Virus record (IMG/VR): IMGVR_UViG_3300025030_000300
Location: 1-34,231 of that record
Direction: 5' to 3' (one strand)
DNA: 34,231 nt
Source of the DNA: a virus
The notes under the pieces are model-generated. The model saw only the letters and a program-made list of their open reading frames with translations, had not been told where the DNA came from and ran no database searches. The position numbers and the translations under genes were made by a program. The first letter of the stretch is position 1, and the number at the start of each line of letters is the position of its first letter. Positions 3,181-31,902 of the stretch are shown here, in pieces.

Positions 3181-4728
3181 CTACCCCGTGAACGCCGCGG
3201 CAAACCGCGGATCCTGGATACCAGCGCCGCCGCCCCACTTGACCGCGAACTGCTTCACGGGCGAGGAGAACGACACACCGAATTGCTGGTTGTTGTTGAT
3301 GAAGATCTGCGGCGTCTTGATGCCCTTGTAGTCGCCCACCCTGAAGAGCTTCTTCGCCCCGCCGATGACGATGCGGGCAGTGGACGATGCAGTGTCCCAG
3401 TCGTTCGCGGCGTAGAACTTCAGGTTCCCGAACGCCATCACCGCCTGGTTCGCGTTCCTGTTCGTCGATGCCGGGTTCGTGTCGAGAGACATGTCCCGCA
3501 GCATGTCGAACAGCCGAACGACCGAAGACAGCACCCACGTTGGTTTGTTCCTGAGGTGCTCGATGTCCTGGTTGTTCACCCCGTGCCCGTACGCCCGCTG
3601 CGTGCAGTACGTGACGAGCAGTGCGACGAACTGGTCGAACGTGTAGGCGTTCGTGTTCGCGTTGAGGTTGCCGGCCGAGAACAGTGTGTTCCCTGCACCG
3701 CCAGCCGTCGCCGTGTTCGCCCGCAGGACCTCGGTCACGATGCGCCGACGCCTGCGCTGCATGGCGCGGTACATCTTGTCGGGGATCTGCTCGATGATCT
3801 TGATGCTCGCGGCGTTCGCCTCCGCCTGCTCGGATACCGTCACGATGCCGCCGTACAGCGTCACCGAGTAGGTCTCCTGGTAGTCGGACATCGCCTGCAT
3901 CTCCTGGTAGGAGTTGCCCTCGGTCACCGCCAGCGGGAGTTCGAACTCGGTGGAGTTGATGATCTTCGAGGTCTGGAAATCCGCCTTCGCCTCGTAGTCG
4001 CACATCTCGTCCAGTGGGACCGAGAACATCCCATCGTCGTCGACCTCGGTCTGCGCGTAGCCAGGATGCGGAATCTTGCCAACCGCATCCGCCGTCGCCT
4101 GGTCGATCCCGGTCGTGAGCACTGCGGCCTTCTGGCGCTCGCTGTCGAACCGCCCGCCCTCCTTCGCGACCTTCTCGCCGGCCACCGCGTACGCAGCCTT
4201 GCGGCGCTCCGTGATGTCCTCGACGTAGTCGTCGGCGTAGACATCACTGCGCTTGTGGTATTCGTCGAGGTAGAAGCCCGCGGCGCTCAGTGCGGCGTAC
4301 TTCAGGCCAGCCTGAGTGCGCTCGCTCTTGAACTCCGGAGCCACGCTCGTGTAGTACCGCTTGAGCAGCTCGTCCATCGACTCGAGATGCAGCTTCCGCG
4401 GCGACTCGGCCGCCGCGAAGAAGTCGCACACCATTGCCGATGCCTTCTCGCGCACGTCGACGAACGTCCCCGGCACGACGCCGGCAACAGGCTCCGCTGG
4501 CTGCGCCTGCGGCACTGGCTGTGCGGCGTTCTTTAGCCTGATGGCGTGCATCTCGGTGTAGACGTACTCGACCGGCGGATCGCCAGGCTTCCCGAGCTTG
4601 TCCAGTGGGGCCTCGGCGATGAACGCTCGCACGGACGCCATGTCCCGCTCTGAGAATGCCTGCATCTTCCCTGTGACCTCTGCGAGCCGCAGGGCCTGAT
4701 CTCGCAGTGCTTTCTCTTCTGGGTTCAT
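3181..4728 (-). CDS. Nested scaffold-major capsid protein from internal start (515 aa)
   Basis: ATG 4728 (Met733 of the polyprotein) is preceded by AGGGAGGT at 4733-4740, with 4 nt between that and the ATG, one of the best ribosome binding sites in the window. It lies exactly where protease-like sequence ends and a charged helical scaffold or delta-type segment begins (MNPEEKALRDQALRLAEV). The product would be a normal-looking capsid precursor: about 150-200 residues of scaffold followed by about 300 residues of HK97-fold capsid. In-frame nested starts of this kind are known in lambda, where Nu3 scaffold lies within the protease gene C. I infer that this is the abundant capsid product and that the full polyprotein is the minor one. 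Confidence 0.6.
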   Translation of the reverse strand: MNPEEKALRDQALRLAEVTGKMQAFSERDMASVRAFIAEAPLDKLGKPGDPPVEYVYTEMHAIRLKNAAQPVPQAQPAEPVAGVVPGTFVDVREKASAMVCDFFAAAESPRKLHLESMDELLKRYYTSVAPEFKSERTQAGLKYAALSAAGFYLDEYHKRSDVYADDYVEDITERRKAAYAVAGEKVAKEGGRFDSERQKAAVLTTGIDQATADAVGKIPHPGYAQTEVDDDGMFSVPLDEMCDYEAKADFQTSKIINSTEFELPLAVTEGNSYQEMQAMSDYQETYSVTLYGGIVTVSEQAEANAASIKIIEQIPDKMYRAMQRRRRRIVTEVLRANTATAGGAGNTLFSAGNLNANTNAYTFDQFVALLVTYCTQRAYGHGVNNQDIEHLRNKPTWVLSSVVRLFDMLRDMSLDTNPASTNRNANQAVMAFGNLKFYAANDWDTASSTARIVIGGAKKLFRVGDYKGIKTPQIFINNNQQFGVSFSSPVKQFAVKWGGGAGIQDPRFAAAFTG

Positions 4729-6924
4729 CGCGACCTCCCTGGGGTGTGACTCGGCGATCGCCTTGAGGCTCGCCGCTTGCCTCTCCTGCCACGTGCATCC
4801 TGCATGCGCCGCGCGGTTCACGAGAGCGATGTTGTAGTTCCTGTCGAAGTGGTGCACGACCTTGCGGCCGTCGGCCTTGCGGATGCCGCTCACGTCAGAG
4901 TCGTGAGAGAACTGATACGGGGCCGGAGCGCCCGCAGCCTTCGCCCGCTTGTGCCGAGCGATCAGCTCAGTGTCGAAGATGCCGACACGACTCTGCGCCT
5001 TCAGCACTGGCTCCCCAGTGGGGAGAGTGCCCCACTTAAGCATCGGGTCGCCGAGTAGCTGCCCGACCTTCTGGAGCACGCGACCATGCGGGAATGCCTT
5101 GTCGTCGGCCTCGGTGCCGTGATCCATCATGAGGTCGCTGCTCTTCAGCCTGCCGGTCTCCACGAGCTCGGCCACGGCCGATGGAAGCACTTCCGCATCG
5201 AGGTCCAGCCGCACGCCGGACTCAGCCACCGTGGCGATGCCTTCGACCCACTCGACGCCGCCGGCGCTCTTGATCTCGTAGCCGTCGCACAGTGTCAGCG
5301 CCTGCGCCGTCATGCGCTCGCTGAACACCGCACCGGCACTCGCCACCTGACGCTCTGCCACCGGCTCCGCGGGGGCCTGCACGTGCTCCGCGAGGTACGC
5401 CACGATGGCCTCCGGCGTCCACTTCTCGCGCGAGAAGCGGTAGCCCACCTGCGCAAGCTCGCCATCGACCACGGCCATCAGGAGCGAGGCGCCGTCCATG
5501 TCCTCGATCTCGTAGTCCTTCACGTCGGCGTAGTCGCCAGGCCGAGTCCAGAAGACGTACGCCTTACCATCGGCCGTCTCCTCGAGGTCGTATTCCATTT
5601 CGGCCTTGCTGACGCTGCCACCGCAGGCGACAGCGCACGCCGAGCAAGACTCGGCGCAAGCGCTGCACTTCTTGGCGCAGTCGCTGGCGCCAGAAGAACA
5701 TGCGTCCGAACACTCGCGACACGCCCGAGCGCATGCCAGGCACGCAGCGACGCAGGCCTCCATCCCCGGCACGCCGCGGCATGCCGAAGCGCAGGCATCG
5801 CACGCTTGAGCGCATGAGTCACAGGCGTCCTTGCACCTCTGCCTGGACGGAGAATCGCATCCTGCGTCGACGCAATCCCGGCAGGCCGAGGCGCACACGC
5901 TACACGCACTCGCGCATTCAGCCATTGCGTCGGAATGAGTCACCATCGCGGCCTTGTGGATGTGCTCCACCGCCGGGCGCCGGCCCTTGATTTTGTAGAA
6001 GCGCTTCGCGAGGTCTTTGTGCGCACAGCCGGCCTGCTCTCGGTCCGCTGCAGCGATGAAGCTGGGCATCATCCGCCCGATGGCCTTCACCGCCTGCCCG
6101 CACTTCGGGCACGCATCCATGCCTTCGGCCATCGGCGCCCCGCAGTGCTCGCACGTCGGCCCCTTCTTCTCCGCCGAGTCCAACATCTTGTGGAGTTGCG
6201 ACGCCATGGCTGAGCACTTCGCCGCCGTGTCGTTGTCTCCGCACTCGGCCGCGGCCTTATGTAGCGCCTCGCAGGCCACGGCGAGCGCAGGCTTGCCAAC
6301 GGGCTTCCCCTCGAGCTGCGCTACCTCTTCCGCCTTCGCCTCGTCTGCGGCGACGGTAGGCCCGTCTACGGCCGGATCCGCCTTGCGCACGATGGCGAAC
6401 CCCGTGATCTCGATGTCCTCCAGGAGCCGCTTCTCGTCGCCGTCTGCCGTCTTGACCACGCGCCCCGTAGCCTTCGCCTCGAGCGAGTGCCCCACGCTTC
6501 CGACGAGGGCCTCCGGAGCGCGGTACTTCACTACGAGCCAGCCGGCGCCGAATTTCTCGCCGGCAATCGTCATGTCCTCCGGGACCACGAAGGCGCCGTG
6601 GAATGCGGCCTTCTCGACATGCTCCGTCTCGTGGTCCACGTCGATGGTCACGACCTCGCGGGCGTTGAGACGACGCGCGGCCTTCTCGATTGCGACGTCC
6701 GTAACTAGGTCACCCTGCTCGTCGACGATGCCGGGCTTTAAGAGCACGCCGTAGAAGACGCCCTCGCTGGCCTTCACGACACTGGCCTTGATGGCGTCGG
6801 TAACGTTCGCCGACAGCGCCGCAAGGTGCGCCTGCGCCTCGTCCTTCGTGGCGTGGCACTTCACTTCCGCGCCGGTGTCGGAGCGGAGGACGCAGAGCCC
6901 GTTGTCACTGAGCTTGTACGGCAT
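3181..6924 (-). CDS. Protease - Cys-rich Csp-like domain - scaffold - major capsid polyprotein (1247 aa)
   Basis: One uninterrupted frame encodes several parts. Residues about 50-185 look like an XkdF-type prohead protease (VDHETEHVEKAAFHG, then GSVGHSLEAK and ITGFAIVRKADPAV). Residues 258-275 are a zinc ribbon (CEHC, CPKC). Residues 337-434 hold 24 cysteines in four helices. Residues about 550-712 form a second protease-like block (MMDHGTEADDKAFPHG, YQFSHDSDVSG). Residues 733-880 look like scaffold or delta domain, and about 950-1247 an HK97-type major capsid (FELPLAVTEGNSYQEMQAM, basic QRRRRR). HK97 phages usually keep protease and capsid as separate genes. The start is ATG 6924, 3 nt after the fibre-like gene's stop. 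An internal start at 4728 probably yields the capsid alone. Confidence 0.8.
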   Translation of the reverse strand: MPYKLSDNGLCVLRSDTGAEVKCHATKDEAQAHLAALSANVTDAIKASVVKASEGVFYGVLLKPGIVDEQGDLVTDVAIEKAARRLNAREVVTIDVDHETEHVEKAAFHGAFVVPEDMTIAGEKFGAGWLVVKYRAPEALVGSVGHSLEAKATGRVVKTADGDEKRLLEDIEITGFAIVRKADPAVDGPTVAADEAKAEEVAQLEGKPVGKPALAVACEALHKAAAECGDNDTAAKCSAMASQLHKMLDSAEKKGPTCEHCGAPMAEGMDACPKCGQAVKAIGRMMPSFIAAADREQAGCAHKDLAKRFYKIKGRRPAVEHIHKAAMVTHSDAMAECASACSVCASACRDCVDAGCDSPSRQRCKDACDSCAQACDACASACRGVPGMEACVAACLACARACRECSDACSSGASDCAKKCSACAESCSACAVACGGSVSKAEMEYDLEETADGKAYVFWTRPGDYADVKDYEIEDMDGASLLMAVVDGELAQVGYRFSREKWTPEAIVAYLAEHVQAPAEPVAERQVASAGAVFSERMTAQALTLCDGYEIKSAGGVEWVEGIATVAESGVRLDLDAEVLPSAVAELVETGRLKSSDLMMDHGTEADDKAFPHGRVLQKVGQLLGDPMLKWGTLPTGEPVLKAQSRVGIFDTELIARHKRAKAAGAPAPYQFSHDSDVSGIRKADGRKVVHHFDRNYNIALVNRAAHAGCTWQERQAASLKAIAESHPREVAMNPEEKALRDQALRLAEVTGKMQAFSERDMASVRAFIAEAPLDKLGKPGDPPVEYVYTEMHAIRLKNAAQPVPQAQPAEPVAGVVPGTFVDVREKASAMVCDFFAAAESPRKLHLESMDELLKRYYTSVAPEFKSERTQAGLKYAALSAAGFYLDEYHKRSDVYADDYVEDITERRKAAYAVAGEKVAKEGGRFDSERQKAAVLTTGIDQATADAVGKIPHPGYAQTEVDDDGMFSVPLDEMCDYEAKADFQTSKIINSTEFELPLAVTEGNSYQEMQAMSDYQETYSVTLYGGIVTVSEQAEANAASIKIIEQIPDKMYRAMQRRRRRIVTEVLRANTATAGGAGNTLFSAGNLNANTNAYTFDQFVALLVTYCTQRAYGHGVNNQDIEHLRNKPTWVLSSVVRLFDMLRDMSLDTNPASTNRNANQAVMAFGNLKFYAANDWDTASSTARIVIGGAKKLFRVGDYKGIKTPQIFINNNQQFGVSFSSPVKQFAVKWGGGAGIQDPRFAAAFTG
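4733..4740 (-). promoter_or_regulatory. Strong internal ribosome binding site for the capsid
   Basis: The minus strand reads AGGGAGGT here, followed by CGCG and ATG at 4728. The site lies in mid-frame of the polyprotein, where no upstream gene ends, so it is not needed for the long product and points to separate translation of the capsid portion. Confidence 0.6.
5623..5916 (-). other. 24-cysteine four-helix domain (DUF326/copper-storage-like) inside the polyprotein
   Basis: Residues 337-434 of the polyprotein carry cysteines at 337, 341, 344, 348, 351, 356 / 364, 368, 371, 375, 378, 382 / 391, 395, 398, 402, 405, 409 / 416, 420, 423, 427, 430, 434. This is four blocks of six, each following C-x3-C-x2-C-x3-C-x2-C-x3(4)-C, so the cysteines line one face of a helix. 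Short Gly/Ser/Pro turns separate the blocks. Csp copper-storage proteins and DUF326 proteins are four-helix bundles with Cys-lined cores that bind many Cu(I) ions. I infer a metal-binding bundle. Disulfide cross-linking is the main alternative. Confidence 0.75.
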
Positions 6925-9290: not shown

Positions 9291-9565
9291 CACTGACTCC
9301 ACTTCTCCCACGCCCGCGTTGCCTCGTTCATGGACTCGAGCACGCCATCGTGCATGCGGAACCACACGATGCCCTGCGGATGACCGTCCACGAGCACAGC
9401 CATCGCGCCATCGGTGGAATCGCTCACGATGCGGCCGAGACCCGCGACGCACTCGGCGAGTGTCTTCGGTTTAGCGCCGCCGCCAGTAGGCTCGGCGCGT
9501 GGAGTCGACGCAAGGGCCGCTGGCGGCGGCAAGGGCTTGGTTCGCTTATGTCTGTAGTCGTCCAT
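9290..9565 (-). CDS. Hypothetical protein (91 aa), first gene after a promoter
   Basis: ATG 9565 is chosen because a GGAG lies 9 nt upstream and the start falls about 22 nt after the predicted transcription start. The frame can be read back to 9622, but that would put the start within the -35 box. The N-terminus is basic and Pro/Ala-rich (MDDYRHKRTKPLPPPAALAS), followed by a compact domain (AECVAGLGRIVSDSTDGAMA, GHPQGIVWFRMHDG). No family recognised. It overlaps the next gene by one base. It could be a small virion or regulatory protein. Confidence 0.65.
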   Translation of the reverse strand: MDDYRHKRTKPLPPPAALASTPRAEPTGGGAKPKTLAECVAGLGRIVSDSTDGAMAVLVDGHPQGIVWFRMHDGVLESMNEATRAWEKWSQ

Positions 9566-20634: not shown

Positions 20635-21072
20635 TCATCGCGCATTCTCCACCGCTGCCACCGCTTCTTCGACACTGCGCACGACGGCGTAAACGCCGCC
20701 GAACTTGACGATCATGGCACCCCATCGGTCTTGCTCTGGCGTCGTGCGCTCGCCCGGGCGCTTGACCTCGAGCTCGATACGCCGGCCGTCGGCGAAGATG
20801 CCGCTGATGTCGGCTTGTCCATGGACGCCGAATCGCACGGCGCGGTGGCCGTAGACTGCGACGCCGGTATTCTGTCGCCACACCCGGCAGTCTGGACGTG
20901 AGCCCAGGGCGGCGAGGATGGCGGCAGTAAGCTCTCGCTCGGTCATTCTCGACTCCTTCACGATATGCGGCACCCTGCGCGAGCACTCCTCGCACAGGCG
21001 CCATACGATTGCACCGCCATCTCGGCGCCATACGACTGTCGCGGGTGCGGCGTGGCAGTGGTCACAGGACAT
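20635..21072 (-). CDS. VRR-NUC nuclease with N-terminal zinc finger (145 aa)
   Basis: ATG 21072 overlaps the methyltransferase stop by 11 nt. Residues 3-30 hold two CxxC pairs (CDHC, CEEC), a zinc finger. From Met43 a VRR-NUC domain follows: FGVHGQADISGIF (Asp88), ELEVKRPGERTTPEQ (Glu102-x-Lys104, Gln114) and FGGVYAVVRSVEEAV. These are the PD-(D/E)XK catalytic residues. AAGGAG lies 7 nt before Met43 (ATG 20946), so the nuclease may also be made alone. Such small nucleases act as Holliday-junction or flap enzymes in phage recombination. Zinc-finger fusion versus two reading products is unresolved. Confidence 0.8.
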   Translation of the reverse strand: MSCDHCHAAPATVVWRRDGGAIVWRLCEECSRRVPHIVKESRMTERELTAAILAALGSRPDCRVWRQNTGVAVYGHRAVRFGVHGQADISGIFADGRRIELEVKRPGERTTPEQDRWGAMIVKFGGVYAVVRSVEEAVAAVENAR

Positions 21073-22042
21073 CGGCCATATCTCCGGCTTCGTAGAGGTC
21101 GAGTTGGCCGTGCGCGTCGCGTTTGGCCGCCTCGACGTTCTTGACGGCCTGGGCGTAGTAGCTGGCCTTCAGCTCGATGCCGATGGCGCGGCGGTGATTC
21201 AGGATGGCGCCGTAGACTTCCGACCCCACACCCATGAACGGGGTCAGCACCACCTCGTTCTCGTTGGACCATAGGATGACGGCCCGCTCGATTACGTCGA
21301 GTTGGAGTGGATGCACGTGCCGCTCGTCATCGTCTTCTCGGGCTTTCTTGTGCGGCAGTACCCTGTCGAGCCGTACGTCATCCCAGAATGCGGAGGCGTA
21401 CTGACGCCAGATCCAATGGGAGTACCTGTTTTCGAGTTGACTCCCAGTCCATCCACGGTACCGCAGTGTGTCTGCTGGCATCTTGCGCTCGCCGGCATAG
21501 TCTGTCAATCCGGCAGGATGCGTTACCGGTACCGCATTCTGTCCGGCCCTGCGGAAGACAAGCAGGTAGTCGGCACTGGCGATCGAGCATCGCGTAGAGT
21601 CCTCGGTTAGGTTCTTGTGTGACAGGCTCTTCGTCATGGTCCGATTGCGAATGGTTAGCGGCTCCTTCCACACGTGGTATCGTGCGACGTATGCGAATCC
21701 ATATCGTTCATGGAGCCTGATGATCTCCCCCGGGAAGTCGCGTAGATGGTCCAGCCCGGTGTTACCAGTCGGAATGTCCATGCAATGGACGGCCGACATA
21801 CGGCCCGGCATTGTGAGCCGATGAATCCCTTTCACCACGAACTCGTAATGCTCGAAGAATTCGCCGTAATCGAGACAGTTGGACAGGTCGCGTGGATCCG
21901 ATGAGTACGTGTACAGCCCACCGAACGGCGGCGAATACAGGGACAGATGGATGGACCCCTCGCGTAGCGATTGCATGACCTCGATGCAGTCGCCACGGTA
22001 TAGCGCCCACCTGCTGGATATGGTTTGCTCCGCTACAGCCAC
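21062..22042 (-). CDS. DNA methyltransferase, N6-adenine/N4-cytosine, beta class (326 aa)
   Basis: GTG 22042 has AGGAGGAGG about 8 nt upstream. The catalytic motif IV is SPPF (residues 37-40) and the SAM-binding motif comes later (LTPFMGVGSEVYGAI at 266-280, then GIELKASYYAQAV). This circular order is typical of beta-class N4/N6 enzymes, and SPP(Y/F) leans towards N4-cytosine. The target is not evident. The gene overlaps the stop of the helicase before it. A methylase next to a SNF2-like helicase recurs in phage genomes and is thought to protect phage DNA from restriction; that role is inferred. Confidence 0.85.
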   Translation of the reverse strand: MAVAEQTISSRWALYRGDCIEVMQSLREGSIHLSLYSPPFGGLYTYSSDPRDLSNCLDYGEFFEHYEFVVKGIHRLTMPGRMSAVHCMDIPTGNTGLDHLRDFPGEIIRLHERYGFAYVARYHVWKEPLTIRNRTMTKSLSHKNLTEDSTRCSIASADYLLVFRRAGQNAVPVTHPAGLTDYAGERKMPADTLRYRGWTGSQLENRYSHWIWRQYASAFWDDVRLDRVLPHKKAREDDDERHVHPLQLDVIERAVILWSNENEVVLTPFMGVGSEVYGAILNHRRAIGIELKASYYAQAVKNVEAAKRDAHGQLDLYEAGDMADVL

Positions 22043-30548: not shown

Positions 30549-30739
30549 AGCGGTAGCGCCTCCTGCGCCGAACATTCACCGGGTAGCGGCACCTTGGCCC
30601 ATGCTGCGCCAATGACACTGAGATCCCACCCTACGAAGCGCACCGTTTCCTCGCCGCAACGCGAGCACGCATACACGTACTCGTCCTGTCGCGACACACT
30701 GCACGAACGCCGGTACTGGATGCGCCAGTCGTGGGTCAT
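30545..30739 (-). CDS. Hypothetical protein with CxxC (64 aa)
   Basis: ATG 30739 overlaps the methylase stop as ATGA. The protein begins MTHDWRIQYRRSCSVSRQDE and has CSRCGEE at residues 25-31; another Cys at 13 and 56 may help bind a metal. No family recognised. It is tightly coupled to the methylase before it and the endolysin after it (TTGA overlap). Small zinc-binding accessory is the best description. Confidence 0.6.
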   Translation of the reverse strand: MTHDWRIQYRRSCSVSRQDEYVYACSRCGEETVRFVGWDLSVIGAAWAKVPLPGECSAQEALPL

Positions 30740-31902
30740 GGTTGTGTGCCACCCATGGCGCTGTCTCGCGATGTCGAGAAAAGCGACGGCCTCTCGTCGA
30801 TGCACCCCGGCGACAACCAGATCCGCTCCTTGTGTCGGTTCTTTCTGTTGACCCCACCGACTCCTCCGCCAAGATACGCTCCGCTCGACGACCAGGAGTG
30901 AACGCGCCAAGAGTCGGGCATCTCGTGCTCGCCATCGTAGCCGCAGAGCGCGATCCGGAGGTGCTGATCGTCGCCGTGGTCGAGCGCCCACGTTCGAACG
31001 TCACCAGCGATATCGCCCCCATCGACCCCATAGAGATCCGATGTGCGAACATCACCCCCGTAGGGCGGGTCAAGGAACACGCCCACGGTGCCCCACCTTG
31101 ACAGCACCCCATCGGTAACGACGCGGCTCCAGTCACCGCAGCAGACACGGACGCGACGAAGGCGGGTCTGGAGCGCCCGCATGTAGCCATACACAAGTGG
31201 CTCTTCGCCCCGCCTCCAATGGGCAGCCGAATCCCATGTGGCTGTCGTGGCGCCAGAACCGCCGCTCGTCATGTCACCAGAAGAGTGAACGGCACCCTGC
31301 CCGGCGTCACCGAGGTGCGGGCGCTGGCGGTTCACGCCCTGCCCGGCGTCACCGAGGTGCGGGCACTGGCGGTTCACGCCCTGCCCGGCGTCACCGAGGT
31401 GCGGGCACTGGCGGTTCACGCCCTGCCCGGCGTCCCCGAGGTGGGGAAGTTGGCGCGTATCGACGAGCAGGCCGTCGCGCGCGACCCAGGGGCCGGTGCC
31501 GGCACACCATCCACTTCCGATCCACGAGCATTGCCCCCACAGCCACCACCCGGCGACCTTGGCATCAAAGAAGTCGGGATCGCCCTCGATCTGTGCTATC
31601 CGTTCGCGGCCAGAGGTTACGAGCCATGCATGGCGGGCAACGAGATCAACTTCGTTAACGGGAGAGTCGGCCCACCGTGCGACATCGTCCGGAGCGGCGC
31701 TGATAGCTCGCCACAGGTTCGCGATGTAGGCGTCGGCGTCATTCACGGTCTCGACGCGATGCGAGTGGTGCGCGGGCCGCTCTAGCAGCACCGCGAGGCT
31801 ACCAGCGAACGGCTCAACATAGTTGTCCACGTCGCCTAGCGCAGACCACGCCTCTGGTGCCACACGACGTTTACCACCGAACCACGGGAAGGGGGCCTTC
31901 AC
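30736..31902 (-). CDS. DNA adenine methylase, D12 class, with internal tandem repeat (388 aa)
   Basis: GTG 31902 overlaps the tiny gene before it as GTGA. The N-terminus PFPWFGGKRRVAPEAWSALG and NYVEPFAGSLAVLL (motif I) and the catalytic LDPPYGG (DPPY, 278-281) are typical of phage Dam-like N6-adenine methylases. Motif I has Leu36 where FxGxG-type enzymes have Gly. Residues 151-204 are four copies of a 14-residue unit (HLGDAGQGVN...), inserted between the catalytic and recognition regions. The enzyme probably protects phage DNA from restriction. The insert may change target choice. Confidence 0.85.
   Translation of the reverse strand: MKAPFPWFGGKRRVAPEAWSALGDVDNYVEPFAGSLAVLLERPAHHSHRVETVNDADAYIANLWRAISAAPDDVARWADSPVNEVDLVARHAWLVTSGRERIAQIEGDPDFFDAKVAGWWLWGQCSWIGSGWCAGTGPWVARDGLLVDTRQLPHLGDAGQGVNRQCPHLGDAGQGVNRQCPHLGDAGQGVNRQRPHLGDAGQGAVHSSGDMTSGGSGATTATWDSAAHWRRGEEPLVYGYMRALQTRLRRVRVCCGDWSRVVTDGVLSRWGTVGVFLDPPYGGDVRTSDLYGVDGGDIAGDVRTWALDHGDDQHLRIALCGYDGEHEMPDSWRVHSWSSSGAYLGGGVGGVNRKNRHKERIWLSPGCIDERPSLFSTSRDSAMGGTQP
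31295..31462 (-). repeat. 42-bp tandem repeat inside the methylase (4 units)
   Basis: Units start at 31295, 31337, 31379 and 31421, period 42 nt. The first three are nearly identical and the last is degenerate. Forty-two is a multiple of three, so gain or loss of a unit keeps the frame. Confidence 0.95.

Follow-up and report, generated by a model that had tools for sequence, protein, structure and literature searches.

The locus described here raises the question of what a segment of 98 residues that contains 24 cysteines is doing inside a phage head protein. The window, by which we mean the whole stretch of DNA analysed, is an entire IMG/VR virus record of 34,231 bp. Its minus strand carries a 1247-codon reading frame, which an initial annotation, made from the sequence alone, had read as a capsid polyprotein with an embedded four-helix domain of the copper storage protein (Csp, DUF326) type.

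Architecture of the 1247-residue reading frame

The features of the frame, in window coordinates and with the evidence for each in brackets, are as follows.

3181..6924 (-): 1247-aa ORF, consisting of head protease, zinc ribbon, Csp-like domain, scaffold-like region and major capsid protein (domain profiles, Cys count, uniform GC3)
6520..6771 (-): XkdF-type head maturation protease domain, residues 52-135 (PF14550 and phrog_3017)
6094..6153 (-): zinc-ribbon-like CxxC...CxxC motif, residues 258-277 (PF13240, sub-threshold)
5623..5916 (-): 24-Cys Csp-like four-helix domain, residues 337-434 (Cys count, Csp comparison, predicted fold)
5857..5916 (-): Cys helix 1, residues 337-356 (Cys count)
5779..5835 (-): Cys helix 2, residues 364-382 (Cys count, pattern search)
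5698..5754 (-): Cys helix 3, residues 391-409, the best DUF326 match (Cys count, pattern search)
5623..5679 (-): Cys helix 4, residues 416-434 (Cys count, pattern search)
3199..3981 (-): major capsid protein domain, residues 982-1242 (PF25209 and phrog_133)

In a Pfam search of the frame, PF14550 matched residues 52-135 (E 9e-8, 32.6 bits against a cut-off of 24) and PF25209 (Phage_capsid_4) matched residues 982-1242 (E 2e-12, 48.4 bits against a cut-off of 27). Searches of the PHROGs gave phrog_3017, a head maturation protease, for the first of these domains and phrog_133 for the second, and head-maturation-protease PHROGs were matched by both ends of the ORF. An XkdF-type protease and a capsid domain, each above its curated cut-off, are therefore present in a single frame, and the proposal that the polyprotein ends in a major capsid protein was borne out. 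The frame resembles known XkdF protease/capsid fusions (PF14550, PF25209, NF045541) in having an N-terminal protease and a C-terminal capsid protein in one frame; it differs from them in carrying the Csp-like insert and a zinc ribbon (PF13240, E 0.0002-0.003, under the cut-off) and in its weak match to NF045541, the prohead protease/MCP fusion model (36.7 bits, below the cut-off of 525). The initial annotation had also placed the cysteine domain between two protease-like segments. This held for the N-terminal segment, which is the PF14550 protease, but not for the C-terminal one: a second protease domain at residues ~440-730 was rejected for want of profile support, and profile searches of the ORF gave no recognisable domain in residues ~440-930.

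There was one further observation concerning the protease region. A family labelled DNA methyltransferase, phrog_1530, matches the XkdF domain (6520-6771) as well as the XkdF gene of a second phage described below (G399); the label may be wrong, or members of phrog_1530 may be fused proteins. The window itself contains two different DNA methyltransferase-type genes, at 21062-22042 and 30736-31902 (N6_N4_Mtase E 9e-14; D12 class E 2e-7).

Residues 337-434 (window 5916..5623) account for 24 of the 39 cysteines of the ORF, distributed as six in each of four blocks, exactly as first described. Within a block the cysteines fall at positions i, i+4, i+7, i+11, i+14 and i+18, a spacing of 4-3-4-3-4 that is broken once, by a step of 5 at the end of block 1. 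Such spacing places every cysteine on the a/d face of its helix, and, judging from this heptad, all 24 would face the core of the bundle. The background frequency of cysteine is 1.3% (56 of 4279 residues in eight other long ORFs and 15 of 1149 in the remainder of this one), from which the probability of 24 cysteines in 98 residues by chance is ~1e-23. The exact six-cysteine pattern occurred three times in the window and not at all in 100 shuffles.

Reverse frames of low-complexity genes do yield cysteine-rich patterns, and we therefore considered whether the domain is a chance or antisense low-complexity reading, or the product of a chimeric assembly. The observations make this very improbable. 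GC3 is 0.73-0.90 along the entire ORF, and codon-position GC indicates a single coding frame; this uniformity leaves no frameshift visible. The codons are non-repetitive: the cysteine blocks share 53-63% nucleotide identity, and 32-58% at third positions, so that they are not a recent DNA repeat, and alanine is specified by four codons. Moreover, as described below, the similarity to Csps exceeds that of shuffles and similar fusions occur in other records. We conclude that the 24-Cys domain is neither an artefact nor unique.

Comparison with copper storage proteins

When the domain was compared by phmmer with PDB sequences, 12 matches were obtained, 10 of them named Csps, the best of these being RkCSP3 (6zif, E 2e-5); the top match overall, 3lmf (5.8e-6), shares the cysteine pattern and is uncharacterised, and a designed protein (E 3) came twelfth. 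When scored with a profile built on six bacterial-type Csps, the domain reached 13.7 bits, as compared to -29 (sd 4.6) for full shuffles and -0.1 (sd 4.5, maximum 18.4) for shuffles in which the cysteines were held fixed. The Csp likeness is thus mostly a matter of cysteine placement, to which the other residues add modestly. The score with PF03860 (DUF326) was 17.1 bits, under the cut-off of 20.4; run alongside it, two canonical Csp3-type proteins also stayed below that value (18.7 and 12.8).

In common with Csp3/Ccsp (6ei0, 6q58, 5arm, 5fig, 6zif; DUF326), the domain is predicted to be a four-helix bundle, with core cysteines in all helices and C-x3-C-x2-C spacing. Its 24 cysteines compare with the minimum of 13 core cysteines expected of a Csp, and its core columns agree with those of Csps (13-15 invariant columns). 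It differs from Csp3 in having 24 rather than 18-19 cysteines, in having no histidine within residues 337-434, whereas Csp3 is recognised by three histidines at the mouth of the bundle (alpha3-loop-alpha4), and in lying inside a 1247-aa head protein, whereas Csps are free-standing small proteins, which bind Cu(I) as homotetramers. Among 42 sequences gathered, the four phage-type domains had 20-27 cysteines and 0-2 histidines, and the 38 cellular-type domains 12-19 and 1-8, respectively. On account of the additional cysteines and the missing mouth histidines, we refer to the domain as Csp-like and not as Csp3.

Structure prediction, for which the initial annotation had called, gave four helices in both of the models made (pLDDT 88-89). 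The single-sequence AlphaFold model was a four-helix bundle (pLDDT 87.9), although it overlaid Csps poorly (TM ~0.45, 10-12 A). For a second model, built from an alignment of 14 related sequences, mostly Csps, the best 18 PDB matches were all Csps (TM 0.88-0.89, 2.0 A at best; TM 0.88 to 6ei0), with 23-34% identity to the solved Csps in structural alignment. The agreement at TM 0.88 is not independent evidence, since the alignment itself contains Csps; a Csp-like overlay was obtained only with that alignment. In the aggregate, the four-helix models, the sequence match to Csps, the alignment-based fold match and the similar phage fusions described below support the original Csp-like reading.

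A bundle of this kind might also be purely structural, that is, a thiol-packed, disulfide-stapled or zinc-bound helical core of the scaffold in which copper is uninvolved. The domain occupies a scaffold position, and scaffolds oligomerise (PMC12749128); the histidine mouth of Csp3 is absent from the phage forms, and a zinc ribbon lies close by in the same ORF. Yet the core cysteine columns agree with those of Csps, and the cores of apo-Csp3 are reported not to form disulfides easily (PMC5171941). We regard a structural core without copper as unlikely, though deserving of serious attention.

Similar domains in other phages

We scanned IMG/VR for the cysteine pattern without regard to capsid genes, and then filtered the matches with the Csp profile. 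Almost all matches of the first scan were antisense low-complexity readings and were set aside. The scans gave canonical Csps, a free-standing Csp-like protein (L146) and at least 3 further fusions to head proteins. In the phage that we designate G001 (L211/L270), a 27-Cys domain is followed by an S78-like protease and then by a PF05065 capsid gene (4e-48); the protease is 26-27% identical to Salinibacter phage proteins that directly precede a capsid-like gene. In G399 (L305/L411), an XkdF protease gene (5e-7) is followed by a 570-aa protein, which has ~20 cysteines in its Csp domain and a stretch matching the head maturation protease family phrog_3017 (9e-4), and then by a capsid gene (phrog_1623 virion structural protein, 4e-21; weak Phage_capsid). 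In G400 (L326/L412), an S49 protease (9e-20; phrog_53, 7e-52) carries half a bundle, of two helices, in its scaffold tail; cement-like and then Mu gpT-like capsid genes lie downstream, and a Mu-type portal upstream. The survey of other phages that had been suggested therefore yielded a similar domain in at least three further, dissimilar phages.

In four of the four phages the Csp-like domain is part of a protease/scaffold protein that is either fused to the capsid protein or no more than two genes from the capsid gene. The phages are dissimilar, with proteases and capsids drawn from different families. By a rough estimate a random gene would occupy that slot ~1 time in 40, so that three of three by chance would be expected at ~1e-5. 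Unless the domain has some function in head assembly, its recurrence in one and the same slot is difficult to account for. Single-protein IMG/VR scans with the Cys domain, the capsid region or the protease region gave no relatives, and searches of named phages with the ORF, the Cys domain and the terminase were all without match, the domain search being limited by low-complexity filtering. We also rejected a DUF326 protein of Acinetobacter 'phage MD-2021a' (L415, CAKLQH020000032.1) as a phage fusion; in this stretch the record looks like part of a bacterial chromosome, and the locus is one for copper resistance.

The finding that the domain is fused to, or one gene from, three kinds of head protease would be accounted for if the bundle were a metal or redox switch, whose loading or lack of metal times protease activation. 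On the other hand, the structure of Csp3 is barely altered by Cu(I) (PMC5171941), so that a switch by change of conformation is less likely, and we consider this role quite improbable.

The free-standing protein L146 is a cysteine-saturated, Csp-like protein encoded in a 242-kb viral record. In a part of the same record (L413; G002 contig 78000-97900), many ORFs, e.g. those at 9433, 9115, 5927, 12396 and 16649, start with a MKYLKKFFEDLEE- or MLHLKLFEEF-like leader. These leaders are reminiscent of the capsid-targeting leaders of T4-type phages; if they are indeed capsid-targeting, the head would be expected to contain the L146 Csp as well. The existence of a free-standing phage protein of this type would agree with a role of the module in copper defence of the infected cell, or in delivery of copper to the next host by a loaded head; Csp3 does shield bacteria from copper (PMC5171941). 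But a module joined to a head protein whose usual fate is cleavage and release would make a strange vehicle, and no other copper genes were seen among the window ORFs scanned. To defence or delivery we give little credence.

Sequence comparisons connect these domains to cellular Csps. The G399 domain is 40% identical over 93 residues to an Acinetobacter Csp whose gene adjoins cueR, a metal ATPase and a copper chaperone, and it also matches a Rhodococcus 'four-helix bundle copper-binding protein'. The G001 protein is 31% identical to a Serinicoccus Csp, which adjoins a multicopper oxidase and a Cu ATPase (recognised from translations). In a tree, the window domain, G001 and L146 were grouped (92/93) and G399 was placed with the Acinetobacter Csp (100/91); at least two changes are required by the starred branches, a tentative reading in view of the long branches and the biased composition. 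Among 396 Actinomycetota genomes, 52 had Csp-like matches, and the longer frames inspected were Csps without head-protein sequence. An actinobacterial Csp-like protein at L299 2032-2691 (+) is also very methionine-rich (MDSMMMGAMSEDMMSMPGMQ...).

Proposed placement in the procapsid and possible role

Two further features bear on how many copies of the domain a head might contain.

4733..4739 (-): internal Shine-Dalgarno sequence gggaggt before the ATG at residue 733 (best among the 86 candidate starts)
3181..4728 (-): probable separately initiated scaffold and capsid product, residues 733-1247 (from the Shine-Dalgarno sequence)

The calculated value for gggaggt at ATG 733 was -11.3 kcal/mol, by far the best among the 86 candidate starts in the ORF, versus -2.2 at the ORF start. 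From this, a 515-aa scaffold and capsid protein is probably also made alone from M733. There is precedent in the C/Nu3 gene pair of lambda, in which an internal start yields a shorter product. Given a separate capsid start, the Csp-like domain, as part of the long protease form, need not sit on every capsid subunit. Its copy number may then approach that of the ~60 proteases of the HK97 prohead rather than that of the 415 capsid subunits (PMC12749128).

We favour, as the best and a reasonably probable explanation, that the protease/scaffold brings with it, into the assembling procapsid, a Cu(I)-thiolate bundle of the Csp type, which is cut off at maturation. The thiol-lined four-helix bundle would be built into the protease/scaffold part of the head-assembly protein and would enter the procapsid alongside the maturation protease. 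In the reducing cytosol of the infected cell it would most likely load Cu(I), at about one ion per cysteine as in Csp3, which binds ~18-20 Cu(I) per monomer with 18-19 cysteines (PMC5171941). Once loaded, the bundle would be a rigid metal-thiolate element inside the procapsid, to be removed at maturation. The least certain step is the benefit, which might be stability of the scaffold or shielding of protease and DNA from copper. Against this explanation count the missing mouth histidines, the DUF326 score below cut-off, the poor single-sequence overlay, the largely cysteine-driven similarity and the failure to see a copper gene among the window ORFs scanned. A bolder proposal, about which we are doubtful, is that procapsids of some tailed phages assemble round a core loaded with copper or another soft metal, with Csp modules acquired separately, at least about a thousand Cu(I) ions per core, and loading required for assembly or maturation.

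The HK97/D3 scaffold (delta) domain and lambda C/Nu3 are comparable in that a scaffold is joined to the capsid protein or protease; we know of no cysteine-lined bundle in either. T4 internal head proteins with a capsid-targeting sequence likewise enter the prohead with the scaffold core, but they are products of separate genes, have a cleaved leader, and have not been described as having a metal-storage domain (PMC3012670, PMC5694885). In agreement with the earlier supposition that no described phage has a Csp domain in its protease/capsid protein, our searches of the open-access literature turned up no paper that places a Csp domain in a phage head protein. To our knowledge, no copper-storage fold has been implicated in virus capsid assembly. 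Csps and head protease/scaffold proteins are each known; their combination and its recurrence appear to be new. The occurrence of a similar domain in the same slot of at least three other dissimilar phages suggests that metal or thiol chemistry is part of head assembly in some phages. The copper content of such procapsids becomes a simple, testable question, and an unusually cysteine-dense natural bundle is on offer for bioinorganic work.
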